A stretch of DNA of 34,484 nucleotides, taken from assembly GCA_031279635.1 (NCBI GenBank), contig JAITIC010000101.1:1-34484 (forward strand). The letters run 5' to 3'. The notes beneath the pieces were generated by a model, which was given only the letters and a program-made list of their open reading frames with translations, did no database searches and was not told where the DNA came from. This stretch comes from Treponema sp. Lineage in GTDB: Bacteria > Spirochaetota > Spirochaetia > Treponematales > Breznakiellaceae. Shown here in pieces: positions 1 to 34,484 of this stretch; position 1 is the first letter of the stretch; every line of letters begins with the position of its first letter. The position numbers and the translations under genes are program-made.

Positions 1-268
1 GGACGGCGGCGGACTGCCTTGTAACAGCCACATGAAGTTGATGTTCTGTCTGCACGCTTTGGCCAGGGCGCGGCTGGAATAGATGTGCTCCATGGCGCCG
101 TACAGGACGATGCTGAGCAATACCACAATATCGCAGGGCGGCCGCCCGTCCTTCTTTTTCTCCGCCCGCCGGTCCGGCTGGGTATCCTCCCCTTCCGCTT
201 CGATCAATTTCCCGGCGCCGCGCTTCGCCGCTTCGCGTTCCCGGTCGGCCTCTTCTTTTACAGCCCCT
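1..268 (-). pseudogene. IS1182-like transposase fragment (N-terminal part), cut by the window edge and bounded by a repeat
   Basis: Reverse-strand reading gives ...KKKDGRPPCDIVVLLSIVLYGAMEHIYSSRALAKACRQNINFMWLLQGSPPP, the GRPPYDP...LY..M..IYSSRK...AC..NINFMWL signature of IS1182/DUF772 transposases. The open frame runs directly into the repeat at 269. Confidence 0.75.
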
Positions 269-450
269 ATCTTAAGCGTTGCATTAGTTCGATCGGAGGC
301 TCGTTCGATAGGAAGTTTATTATACCCTCCCCCGCGCAAGCGGGTTCTTGGGTTTAGTACCAAAATTTTGTAAACGCTGCATCATTTGAGCCGGAGCAAG
401 CTTGGCAAGCGCAGCTTGCCTTGGGGTATTAAACCAGACTTTCGAATAAA
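269..450 (+). repeat. Mosaic intergenic repeat, copy A
   Basis: tatcttaagcgttgcattagttcgat...aggaagtttattata...ccaaaattttgtaaacg...ggtattaaaccagactttcgaataaa. Near-identical blocks occur at 14331-14546 (inverted), 19464-19670 and 26339-26500 (inverted). Confidence 0.9.
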
Positions 451-14330: not shown

Positions 14331-14546
14331 TTTATTCGAAAGTCTGGTTTAATACCAGGGCAAGCGCAGCTTGCCAGGCATGCTGCGCTTGCCGCGGTTC
14401 AAACAACATACTACGTACAAAAATTTAGTATTAAACCAAGAACCCGCTTACGCGGGGGAGGGTATAATAAACTTCCTATCGAACGAGCCTCTGATCGAAC
14501 TAATGCAACGTTTAAGATACCTCGGAGCTTGCTCCTCGGAGGCTCA
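14331..14546 (-). repeat. Mosaic intergenic repeat, copy B
   Basis: tttattcgaaagtctggtttaatacc...ataataaacttcctatcgaacgagcctctgatcgaactaatgcaacgttta...ggaggctca; inverted relative to copies A and C. Confidence 0.9.
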
Positions 14547-16593: not shown

Positions 16594-18208
16594 CCTGTTC
16601 CGTATACTTGTAGCGGATGATGAATACTGGATACGGCAAAACCTGAAAGGGATATTGAATTGGGAAGCACATTCCTTTGTATTTCTTGAGTCTGCGGAAG
16701 ACGGCGAGCAGGCTTTGGAAAAAATTCGTTCCCAGCATCCCGACATAGTTATTACCGATGTGAATATGCCTTTTATTACAGGAATCGAGCTAATAAAAAT
16801 TGGCTGCACAGAAAATCCTTCCATTGTTTTTATCGCGCTCAGCGGTTACAGCGATTATGAATATGTAAGGCCCGCGTTAGTTGCCGGGGCTATTGACTAT
16901 CTCCTAAAGCCTGTATCAAAAGGGGATTTATTGACGGTATTGAATAAAGCGGTAGAACATATCCTAAGAGTCCGTCTCCAAAACCAGAAACAGCGGGAAA
17001 TAAAGGAAAAGCTGCGAATCGCGACGGGGACAGCTATTGATTATGAATTAAGCCAGCTTATTCACCAAACCGGTGATTCGGAATTACAGAAACAGATACA
17101 GGGACGGCTGGCGGAATATGAACTGGATTTTGCCGGTTTTACCATGATCGCGTTCCATACCGTTGCGCTGGCCAGGATTCTTCGAAACCGGGAAGATACC
17201 ACGTCAGACAAGCTGATTTTGGAGATTAAAGAACAGATAACAATATCGGCGGAAGGCAGCAAATACCTCGTTTTCCACTATACCTTTAAAACGAATGAAT
17301 TTTTTCTGGTTACGGACATGAACCGGTCAAAACTTGGGAGTATATGCAAACGGCTGGCCCAAATACTGCGTGAAATAACCGGATTTCCGGTAACGGTGCT
17401 TGTAAGCCGGCATTATGTCGCTTTTTCTGACCTGCGGAATGCTTATAATGAAACAAAAGCGGCCCTGCTTTCACAGCCCTATTGTACGCAAAATACGGTT
17501 CTCTATTCCGGCGATACCGGCAACCGAAGTTTCCTAAGGCGCATAAGCGCGGAGCAGGAAAAAGAGCTGCAATTTTCGATATCGAGCGGCAACCGATCCC
17601 TTTTTCAGCATATTTTATCTGAACAAACAGGCTTGTTTCAATGTGTGGAACAAAATTGGACTTATGCCGAAGTGAGGCAGACAATTGACAGCATATCCTG
17701 GCTGTTACGTAGCGTTGATTCTATTGACAGTACACAATTGCTTGTTTTGGATAATCTTGCCGAACTTCTGCTCGCCGCTGTTGACGGATTTGACGTTGAA
17801 GAAATGCGCGGCATTATAGAACAGATGACAGATGAGGTGTTTGGGGATGTTCCTGCAAAAAAACAGAGCGAAGGTATGCGTCAAACCGTGATCAACGTAA
17901 AAGAATATATCGATAAGAACTATTCTGAGGATCTCTGGTTGACCGGCCTTTCGCGGAAATTTAATGCCGAAAGCTCTTATCTTTCCAAAACTTTTAAGAA
18001 CATTGTCGGTGAAAATCTGATGTTCTACATCGCGAAGATGAGAGTTGAAAAGGCAAAAATACTTTTACACAAGAATGAACTTAGCATCACCGATATTGCG
18101 CTACTGGTCGGATACGGAGACTATTCCTATTTCAGCCGGGTTTTCCGAAAGATAACCGGGTTAAGCCCTCGGGAATACAGGGAGAAAAAAGCTTATGAAG
18201 AAACTTAA
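16586..18208 (+). CDS. YesN/AraC-type response regulator
   Basis: MTDLFRILVADDEYWIRQNLKGILNW...PDIVITDVNMPFITGIELI...; C-terminal HTH: KEYIDKNYSEDLWLTGLSRKFNAESSYLSKTFKNIVGENLMFYIAKMRVEKAKILL...GYGDYSYFSRVFRKITGLSPREYR. Overlaps kinase gene by 8 nt. Confidence 0.95.
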   Translation: MTDLFRILVADDEYWIRQNLKGILNWEAHSFVFLESAEDGEQALEKIRSQHPDIVITDVNMPFITGIELIKIGCTENPSIVFIALSGYSDYEYVRPALVAGAIDYLLKPVSKGDLLTVLNKAVEHILRVRLQNQKQREIKEKLRIATGTAIDYELSQLIHQTGDSELQKQIQGRLAEYELDFAGFTMIAFHTVALARILRNREDTTSDKLILEIKEQITISAEGSKYLVFHYTFKTNEFFLVTDMNRSKLGSICKRLAQILREITGFPVTVLVSRHYVAFSDLRNAYNETKAALLSQPYCTQNTVLYSGDTGNRSFLRRISAEQEKELQFSISSGNRSLFQHILSEQTGLFQCVEQNWTYAEVRQTIDSISWLLRSVDSIDSTQLLVLDNLAELLLAAVDGFDVEEMRGIIEQMTDEVFGDVPAKKQSEGMRQTVINVKEYIDKNYSEDLWLTGLSRKFNAESSYLSKTFKNIVGENLMFYIAKMRVEKAKILLHKNELSITDIALLVGYGDYSYFSRVFRKITGLSPREYREKKAYEET

Positions 18209-19466
18209 AAAAACATTGTTTTGTGTTGTTTTGCCGTGTTTGCTTCTGGCGGGATGTTTTCCCGGTTTCCGGCAGGAACAGGAATATCCGCGGAAAACGG
18301 TGTTTACTATTTTGTTCGGACAATCCAATTCCGATCCCGGATTGGAAGATATGTTTACCGAAAAATTAATCAGGGAGTTTCCAAATGTGACTCTGGAATG
18401 GGAAAGTTTTGATTGGGGGGATTATTTTTCTTCCGAGATGCAGGCAAAGATTGCCTCCGGCGAGGTGCCGGACATCATCATCGGCAAGGCGCAGGATGTC
18501 GCCGCTTACCAGCCTTCCGGTTTTTTTGCGCCCTTTAGACCGGAAGAGTATGAGCGGATACAGAAGGATTGGCTTGATAGTGTTACGGTTAATAGTGAAG
18601 TGTACGGCCTTCCGTACAATGCTTTCTATCAGGGAGTACTGTATAATAAAAACATATTCTGGCGGTATGGTCTTGAGGTTCCTGCTACCCTGGAAGATAT
18701 GGATAATGTCATCCGGCGCCTTGAGGAAGTAGGCATTACGCCTTTTGCCGCCCATTTTCGCGAAAACTGGTACGCGGGAAATATAACTATGCAATTCGCT
18801 ATAAACGAGGTGTTTGCCCGAAATCCGGAATGGGGTGAGGAGTTCCGTTCGGGGCTGCGCTCCTTTTCCGAATCCGGGGAATATGCCGCGTGTTTGCGTC
18901 AGGTGGAGACTTTATGGAAACATACCTGGAAGGATGCGGCTGCCGTAAATCAGAGTGAGTGCGCCAAACGATTTGCGAATGAGGAAGCCGCGATGTACCT
19001 GACCGGTACCTGGTCGGTACAGGATTTGTTTTCTATCCGTCCAAATCTTATGATCGGTATATTTCCTTACCCCAATAAAACCGGAGACGCCCGGCTGATT
19101 TTTGAGCCTAATCTGACATTCATGAAAAACACGGAGAGTCCCAATTTAGAATTGGCGGAATTGATGATAGCGTCGATTTACCGTGACACGGAACTAGCCA
19201 GGACAATCTGCGATTTTACCAGAACAACACCGCTCTTAACAGGGGTACAGACCGACAGCTTACAGCGGGTTGAAGAAGATATTAACGCCTACAAAAACGC
19301 GGGGAAGATTGTCGATGCCACCCTGGGTAACCGGCAGCTTGTATGGCGGTTTCAGGCGGCGTGCGCCGCTCAAATCAACGCATGGCTTAGCGGTAAGATT
19401 CCATTTGAAGATGTCCTGCAATTTGCGGACGATAACCGTTTTGAGAGCGGGGCCATGTTCAGATGA
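18195..19466 (+). CDS. Extracellular solute-binding lipoprotein (ABC carbohydrate type), coupled to the two-component system
   Basis: Lipobox LLAGC; VFTILFGQSNSDPGLEDMFTEKLIREFPNVTLEWESFDWGDYFSSEMQAKIASGEVPDIIIGKAQDV... Start overlaps the response-regulator stop by 14 nt. Confidence 0.9.
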   Translation: MKKLKKTLFCVVLPCLLLAGCFPGFRQEQEYPRKTVFTILFGQSNSDPGLEDMFTEKLIREFPNVTLEWESFDWGDYFSSEMQAKIASGEVPDIIIGKAQDVAAYQPSGFFAPFRPEEYERIQKDWLDSVTVNSEVYGLPYNAFYQGVLYNKNIFWRYGLEVPATLEDMDNVIRRLEEVGITPFAAHFRENWYAGNITMQFAINEVFARNPEWGEEFRSGLRSFSESGEYAACLRQVETLWKHTWKDAAAVNQSECAKRFANEEAAMYLTGTWSVQDLFSIRPNLMIGIFPYPNKTGDARLIFEPNLTFMKNTESPNLELAELMIASIYRDTELARTICDFTRTTPLLTGVQTDSLQRVEEDINAYKNAGKIVDATLGNRQLVWRFQAACAAQINAWLSGKIPFEDVLQFADDNRFESGAMFR

Positions 19467-19670
19467 GCCTCCGCGGAGCAAGCTCCGCGGTATCTTAAGT
19501 GTTGCATTAGTTCGATCTGAGGCTCGTTCGATAGGAAGTTTATTATAACGTCTGCTTTAATACCAAAATTTTGTAAACGTTGCGTCATTTGAGCCGGAGC
19601 AGAGCTTGGCAAGCGCAGCATGCCTGGCAAGCTGCGCTTGCCCTGGTATTAAACCAGACTTTCGAATAAA
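19464..19670 (+). repeat. Mosaic intergenic repeat, copy C
   Basis: tgagcctccgcggagcaagctccgcggtatcttaagtgttgcattag...ggtattaaaccagactttcgaataaa. Internal TIR-like ends GTCTGCTTTAATACC (19550-19564) and GGTATTAAACCAGAC (19645-19659). Confidence 0.9.
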
Positions 19671-26338: not shown

Positions 26339-26500
26339 TTCGAAAGTCTGTTTTAATACCCTAAGGCAGGCTGCGTTTGCCAGGCTTGCTCCGGCTCAAA
26401 TGACGCAACGCTTACAAAAATTTGGTATTAAACCAGACGTTATAATAAACTTCCTATCGAACAAGCCTCCGTTCCGGCGCAGCCCAACGCTAAAGATACC
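26339..26500 (-). repeat. Mosaic intergenic repeat, copy D
   Basis: cttcgaaagtctgttttaatacc...ccggctcaaatgacgcaacgcttacaaaaatttggtattaaaccagacgttataataaacttcctatcgaac. TIR-like ends at 26346-26360 and 26424-26438. Confidence 0.85.
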
Positions 26501-26664
26501 GCAGGGCCGAATGCCTCATTTCAAAAAACAACCGAAGGCCCGGATGCCTCATTCAGTATAATCAAGACGCTGTCACTGTACAAGCGATCGAATTGCGCCG
26601 CGTTAAATCTAACCATAGGGGATTCCGCCGTGTGGGCAGCAATTCCGAATTCAAGATAACCACA

Positions 26665-30423: not shown

Positions 30424-30655
30424 GAGCCTGTGGGGTTTGTCCCAAAACCGTGCCCCGGCTATGCCGGGAACGTGAGCGCACAGTTGGGACAGGCTCATTA
30501 TGTAGAGTCTGTCCATAATGTAGACACATTATGGACAGACTTCCTTAAAAAACGCATTTTCGCAGCCGTTAGGCGAGAAAATGCAATGTCTGTCCGCAAA
30601 ATAACCGACTTTGTGGACAGACATTATGTAGAATGTTTCGGACAGAACATCAGCA
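30422..30655 (+). repeat. Complex palindromic repeat element with GTCTGTCC/ATTATG motifs
   Basis: Perfect 16-bp arms agtctgtccataatgt (30506-30521)-agac-acattatggacagact (30526-30541), followed by gcattttcgc...gcgagaaaatgc and gtctgtccgcaaa...tttgtggacagac. Nearly the same block recurs at 34372-34484. Confidence 0.85.
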
Positions 30656-31947: not shown

Positions 31948-32250
31948 GGCGCTCGTCTTCTTTCAACTCCAATCGGCTCTCCCCGCGAATTCATGACGGG
32001 CAAAGTTAAATGCAACACGGACCGGCGCACTGCTCCTCGGAGGATCATTTCTGTAATCACCCATATCAGTGTGTTTAGTCCAATCAACCTGTTATGCGGG
32101 CTGCTTTTGTCTGCCCTTAATATCTTTTCGAGTGAAGCCGAATTTTCTTGACTATTTTAGTAAATTTTATATCTTATAATTATAGGATGGTTTTGAACCA
32201 AATCCCAAGCAGCGCTGCCACAAAACAAGACACATAAAGAGGAATTAAGG

Positions 32251-34317: not shown

Positions 34318-34371
34318 ATTGTGTATGAAGACTCTCGATTCGTCAACAGGGGAGCGCCTGCGGCGCTAATT

Positions 34372-34484
34372 AGAGTCTGTCCATAATGTAGACACATTAT
34401 GGACAGACTACCTTAAAACAGGCATTTTGCGCACCGTTTTGGTACAAAACGGGAGCAAATGCAAGGTCTGTCCGCAAAGTAACC
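34372..34484 (+). repeat. Second copy of the palindromic GTCTGTCC element, truncated by the window end
   Basis: agtctgtccataatgt-agac-acattatggacagact (34374-34409), then ccttaaaacaggcatttt...gcaaatgcaaggtctgtccgcaaagtaacc. Confidence 0.85.

Follow-up and report, generated by a model that had tools for sequence, protein, structure and literature searches.

The question raised by this locus is what kind of sequence has been repeated in it. The window, that is, the whole 34,484-nt stretch analysed here, is contig C256 of a 3.1-Mb MAG in 276 contigs (G000). A sequence-only reading had described four copies of a modular repeat in it, near positions 269–450, 14331–14546, 19464–19670 and 26339–26500, as a TIR-bounded MITE or a REP-like element. 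A covariance model showed all four to be genuine (E-values 5.6e-38, 1.2e-24, 1.5e-23 and 1.8e-17; scores from 81.6 to 170 bits), with corrected limits. Copy A (268..446, + strand) is a long form; it carries the hairpin module CCCTCCCCCGCG and has lost about 27 nt at its left (TGAGCC-hp1); the sequence switches abruptly at 267/268, against a remnant of an IS1182-type transposase. This remnant, at the contig edge (1–381, − strand), is an IS1182-family fragment (DUF772) adjoining the truncated left side of the copy. Copy B (14335..14546, − strand) is a complete long form with the CCCTCCCCCGCG module, flanked by GA on the left and TAAACA on the right. Copy C (19464..19666, + strand) is a complete canonical long form, TGAGCC...TTTCGAA, flanked by GA and TAAA, and its bases 1–3 serve as stop codon for the solute-binding-protein gene upstream (18195–19466). 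Copy D (about 26339..26519, − strand) is a decayed long form with decayed ends, its left end being altered to TGAGGCATTC and its right flank, GCAACT, differing from the usual TRAA. A fifth, truncated copy (32030..32047, − strand) consists of the left end TGATCCTCCGAGGAGCAG only, at the usual site CAGAAA^T inside another repeat, designated repeat Q. The arms shared by A and B (CCCTCCCCCGCG.AAGCGGG) and by C and D (ACGTCTG.TTTAATACC) were seen as first described, whereas the catttgagcc stretch of B, taken to be unrelated sequence, carries GTAGTATGTTGTTTGAACCGCGG, a variant also present in L231, L239 and L098.

Alignment of copies (58–112 copies) showed that the element spans TGAGCC...TTTCGAA and that conservation stops sharply at both ends. 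The two ends are not inverted repeats of each other; the inverted repeats of the element are internal, and the GTCTGNTTTAATACC pair forms an internal stem whose 3′ arm adjoins the right end. The inner inverted-repeat unit of 93–110 bp that had been proposed is present in C and D, but as a right-hand hairpin stem and not as a mobile boundary, and TGAGCC falls well outside it. The long form (165–210 bp) runs in order through TGAGCCT-CCGCGGAGCAAGCTCCGCGG (hairpin hp1), TATCTTAAGCGTTGCATTAGTTCGATC, GGAGGCTC, GTTCGATAGGAAGTTTATTATACC, GTCTGGTTTAATACC and a variable part, followed by TGAGCC with the GC hairpin hp2, GGTATTAAACCAGAC and TTTCGAA. Short forms (about 35–90 bp) contain the two ends and one hairpin only, and look like deletions between the two hairpins. 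Recombination by module was borne out, as GC hairpins are exchanged or lost among copies: a CCCTCCCCCGCGCAAGCGGGTTCTTGG hairpin module substitutes for the GTCTGG arm in some copies, including A and B, unrelated hairpins have been swapped in elsewhere (GGGGATGTCCAGG... in L101 and L176; GGGGCTGTCCGAA... in L178, L200 and L242), and an extra conserved hairpin module lies beside hp2 in the relative G032 and in the named MAG L119. The modularity first noticed is explained by this exchange between copies, probably together with deletion between the two hairpins. A further dispersed hairpin repeat (AGTCTGTCCATAATGTAGACACATTATGGACAGACT followed by CCTTAAAA...) was observed in the window at 30503–30606 and 34371–34484; a hairpin related to it is the one swapped into hp1 of L178/L200/L242, and the repeat itself interrupts an element copy in L197.

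Folding and alignment of 41 sequences from multiple species showed two consecutive hairpins in the long form. Stem P1 is formed by the left end and its inverted copy inside the element, around hp1, and stem P2 by the right end and its own inverted copy inside the element, around hp2. In copy C, the P1 left-end arm GAGCCTCC (19465..19472, + strand) pairs with the internal arm TGAGGCTC (19518..19525, + strand; one mismatch to the consensus GGAGGCTC) around hp1 (19473..19488, + strand). The P2 internal arm (19550..19564, + strand) and right-end arm (19645..19659, + strand), which had been read as the left and right TIRs, enclose the variable GC hairpin hp2. In the 41-sequence alignment, 97.8% of stem cells were paired, and the hairpins are conserved by paired changes: both sides had changed at 10 pairs and in 71 cells, compared to 6.1 and 21.3 after shuffling, and none of 500 shuffles reached the observed values. 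The signal was lost when the partner was slid by 1–3 columns. The two sides of P1 change in step across species (GAGCC/GGCTC, GAACC/GGTTC, GAGGC/GCCTC); P2 scarcely varies and is therefore little informative on itself.

The 15-bp arm, with up to 2 mismatches, was found 107 + 105 times (212) genome-wide, compared to 7 + 6 (13) for a reversed control pattern, and 112 right ends were counted in 1.29 Mb of selected contigs. Further copies therefore exist, in a dispersed family of about 150 genome-wide, a number extrapolated from the 1.29 Mb inspected by its share of half-sites (159/212). The copies are intergenic in 64 of 66 cases, in DNA that is about 87% coding by a simple ORF call.

The target of the element is RA^TRAA, with insertion between A and T. 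Among 59 long copies drawn from a range of species, the flanking A at −1, T at +1 and A at +3 were invariant (59/59 each), and a purine was found at −2 in 57 and at +2 in all 59. As RA^TRAA is asymmetric, the orientation of insertion is fixed, and the practical absence of inverted neighbours is to be expected, because the target fixes orientation; head-to-tail junctions (TTTCGAA|TGAGCC) are recurrent. The possibility that the flank is recognised through pairing to an internal TTTATT, which could pair with the right flank, is not favoured: the purine pattern is suggestive, but G024 has TTTTTT at this position while its flank remains TAA. In some cases (L099:10581, L388, L393) the element has inserted precisely into the loop of a hairpin resembling a terminator, but the idea that such loops or terminators are preferred targets was rejected, as no enrichment was found (1/55 vs 1.1% in intergenic RATRA controls).

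The element is mobile. Filled and empty sites were compared in repeat Q, which is found in at least 19 places within 1.29 Mb, several of its copies holding the hairpin element at an identical site. Empty Q reads CAGAAATAAAAAACC (CAGAAA^TAAAAAACC) and filled Q reads CAGAAA-TGAGCC...TTTCGAA-TAAAAAACC, with no duplicated base (a 1-bp T duplication is indistinguishable from none). Repeat Q, about 190 bp long, represents a second family of MITE-like type; its inverted ends are GCAGGNTGATTRGRCTAAA / TTTTAGCCTAATCATCCTGC, and it lies in the window at about 32000–32090 (− strand) and also at L209:14576, L173:3844, L106 and L185. The joined flanks of copies in genome G079 were then searched in four close relatives with complete genomes (G098, G094, G041 and G038). 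A 115-bp G079 copy was missing, at the exact base, from all four (e.g. TTTGAAAAAA^TAAATG), with no base duplicated other than, possibly, a single T; the target-site duplication expected of a MITE was thus looked for at empty sites and not seen. G038 also lacks two more G079 copies (113 and 112 bp) and one 47-bp short copy, and one of the copies missing from G038, L385, is common to G079 and G094. The 47-bp copy, a single polymorphic site, could be either self-moving or a deleted long form. Furthermore, right halves that are almost identical occur at least 10 times, nearly all of them in a single MAG and each with a different flank, implying recent spread.

An exact-pattern scan of the genome collection gave matches only in Treponema or Spirochaetaceae MAGs, and the matching bins, with the host read from their names, appear to be termite-gut samples. 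By DNA similarity, 9 of 60 relatives matched, all of the same genus; with the covariance model, matches were obtained in 36 of the 149 genomes of the order, in 19 of 62 genera, and a phylum-scale search matched 10 of 247 genomes, all again of the same order. Distant members have the plan and the target in common, but not the arm sequence. The single-contig genomes G094 and G079, for example, have A^TCAACAACCCCGACGC..GGGGTATGTTGTT..GGCTTTAATACCC..CGACGC..GCGTCGGGGTATTAAACC..CGCACGAA^TAAA, and elements in complete genomes measure 47–50 bp (some 61–70) in the short form and 113–117 or 134–136 bp in the long form. Genomes G094 (2,843,201 bp) and G062 (4,059,867 bp) are, as a lead only, comparable in size to T. 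denticola ATCC 35405 and T. primitia ZAS-2, respectively. A diverged form of the element appears to be present in genomes resembling that of the oral species Treponema denticola.

Taken together, these results make it probable that the repeat is a non-autonomous element of about 35–210 bp that moves as DNA, widespread in the order of Treponema, ended by hairpins, inserted with no target-site duplication and moved in trans. An enzyme supplied in trans would recognise the hairpins of the two ends, on single-stranded or extruded DNA, and would join or excise the element at the hairpin bases; the element would then enter in one orientation between A and T of RA^TRAA, the target bases not being copied. 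The modularity would be accounted for by exchange of GC hairpins, together with deletions between the two hairpins that give rise to the short forms. We infer that the hairpins are read by the enzyme, which may be of the single-strand (HUH-like) or the site-specific recombinase class; upkeep of the palindromes by template switching or gene conversion could, however, also give compensatory changes with no hairpin-reading enzyme. A bolder version of this reading is put forward tentatively: an order-wide set of mobile DNA hairpins with conservative RA^TRAA insertion, of which the plan alone is conserved, in which both 47-bp one-hairpin units and two-hairpin units of about 115–170 bp may be mobile and the enzyme may be neither a Y1 HUH transposase nor a known linked recombinase.

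It is possible, though doubtful, that a Y1 HUH transposase acting on single-stranded DNA moves the element, which would then derive from IS200/IS605 or a RAYT and count as a PATE or REP. IS200/IS605 elements and PATEs are described as carrying hairpins at both ends, lacking terminal inverted repeats and inserting directionally with no duplication of the target (PMC7290912). The element resembles PATEs in being short and protein-less, with a hairpin at or near each end, no TIRs, no target duplication and directional insertion, and it shares its extragenic location with this group (PMC7290912; PMC3733652). However, its target is fixed on both sides (RA^TRAA), compared to a 4–5-nt motif on the 5′ side only in PATEs, and its ends pair with inverted copies inside. 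With REP/REPIN and their RAYT (TnpA-REP) it shares extragenic hairpins, more than 100 copies, single and compound forms, and asymmetric conserved tails. The REP-like description comes closer as regards the plan, with its extragenic hairpins in short and compound forms. However, the consensus is TGAGCC or TCAACA with no GTAG tag 5′ of the hairpin, no dedicated RAYT was found, compound copies are fixed elements of two hairpins that have ends and a target of their own, and across the order the plan is conserved while the arm sequence is free. Single-strand transposons often show an orientation bias with replication. No significant strand bias was seen in the element, 29 of 69 copies agreeing with local GC skew (p 0.23), although skew is a weak proxy in short MAG contigs.

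Y1 transposases do occur in this genome, as IS200, RAYT and decayed RAYT, but none of the Y1 genes was bounded by element ends, apart from nested RAYT-like units in the relative G029, and Y1_Tnp was not found in the element carriers G038 and G041 (both complete) and G030. As Y1 is missing from several carriers, a REP/RAYT or IS200 origin is not established, and the resident RAYT and IS200 were rejected as partners. An intact-looking RAYT gene of this genome (L244; G000 C206:14300) lies between GGTGACTGACACC repeats, and not between element ends, indicating that it has its own repeat family. In G029, 11 weak Y1 matches proved to be RAYT-like genes without the HUH histidines, 3 of 6 sampled being inside or against element copies, in both orientations. 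ORFs of this kind (about 162 aa) have LSFYIKP for HIHLL and have lost the usual C-terminus (L334 and L336–L340 in G029; L245 at G000 C89:14033). The units have ends of their own (CTATTCTTGACCC/GGGTCAAGTTTAG); in many cases they lie nested within the hairpin element, and they also occur away from it. Because of these ends and their element-free and two-way occurrence, they were rejected as autonomous copies and read as nested passengers; they look like nested units, although enriched in element copies.

The search for a mobilising enzyme was extended beyond Y1 genes. In this genome, right ends with no nearby left end enclosed no transposase. In complete genomes, 40 further regions upstream of right ends, nearly all of about 5 kb, contained no transposase or recombinase and no kb-scale copy. 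No autonomous copy, and no parent IS with the ends of the element, whether of IS200 type or other, was found at these right ends of the fragmented MAG or in these regions of the complete genomes. An ISAzo13-like IS at the end of contig C209 was set aside as a passenger in an element copy, other copies of this IS having no element. The IS, whose truncated ORF resembles by eye an ISAzo13-type transposase, lies at five contig ends and is inserted in one hairpin-element copy (L219:17690–17836; contig ends of C247, C102, C75 and C74). On C89, an orphan right end has a tyrosine recombinase nearby, which was rejected as part of a phage-like region.

Integration of a circular form by a serine, tyrosine or IS110-type site-specific recombinase is unlikely; the junction of such a circle would be TTTCGAA|TGAGCC, which shares an AAT.A core with the target. 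The recurrent head-to-tail junction is the circle junction predicted by such a process and has RATRA in common with the target, inside the long form the circle junction is repeated in inverted orientation, and conservative, duplication-free insertion would fit; however, no linked recombinase was found near the right ends inspected, and nested-hairpin ends are usually not required by site-specific recombinases. Integron attC sites are known from oral treponemes, whereas no integrons were found in termite treponemes (PMC3607928). The element, like attC, consists of imperfect palindromes in Treponema, and the attC of known integrons is recognised as folded DNA; but the element is also in termite treponemes and is dispersed singly, not between cassettes, with crossover at A^T compared to G^TT in the AAC/GTT core triplets of attC. 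This crossover and the dispersed single-copy context rule out an integron cassette or attC.

It is highly improbable that the element is a structured RNA or a transcription signal, such as a terminator or attenuator, that selection maintains and that became repeated only secondarily. The strong GC hairpins near gene ends are in favour of this reading, as are the TGA of the first three bases, which supplies the stop codon of the upstream gene in several copies, and a slight, not decisive, excess in convergent gene pairs (18/47 vs 22% background). Against it, no match was obtained in Rfam at the gathering score, and only a spurious plant-microRNA match below it. Standing stem mismatches comprised 17 G.T and 23 A.C; as G.T is not in excess of A.C, whereas a constraint at the RNA level should favour G.U, the stems are best interpreted as pairing at the level of DNA rather than RNA. 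Presence or absence between close genomes at neutral-looking sites, and near-identical copies with unrelated flanks, also argue against it, so that an RNA or transcription signal as the primary reason for the spread is largely refuted.

That the element is a classical MITE of a DDE insertion sequence, bounded by the 15-bp inverted repeats as TIRs, can be dismissed as next to impossible, for although these repeats are perfect in many copies, conservation runs past them to TGAGCC and TTTCGAA and the empty sites show no target duplication. Correia/NEMIS, RUP and ERIC are bacterial MITEs (reviewed in PMC2229807) and are likewise small, non-autonomous, intergenic and able to fold into hairpins; the element differs in having no TIRs or TSD and two tandem hairpins in place of one long palindrome. 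No named family had been recognised at first, and this stands: Rfam, plasmid and phage searches gave no match to the element, the exact right-end pattern had no match in viral contigs, and searches of open-access literature yielded nothing relevant on such repeats in Treponema. Each tested family fails at least one tested defining feature, indicating that the element is a member of none. In our judgement it would work like hairpin-ended, target-fixed, duplication-free mobile elements such as PATEs or REPs, and it is most likely a new variant among hairpin-type non-autonomous elements, with its enzyme in trans.

If this reading is true, the element would rank with the most abundant mobile sequences in termite-gut treponemes, with related copies in T. 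denticola-like genomes. Its copies would break MAG assemblies, and its insertions, polymorphic among close relatives, would be usable as typing markers. It would also raise the question of which enzyme, acting in trans, can move hairpin elements without a TSD where Y1 transposases are missing, a question that the covarying ends and the defined target make directly testable.
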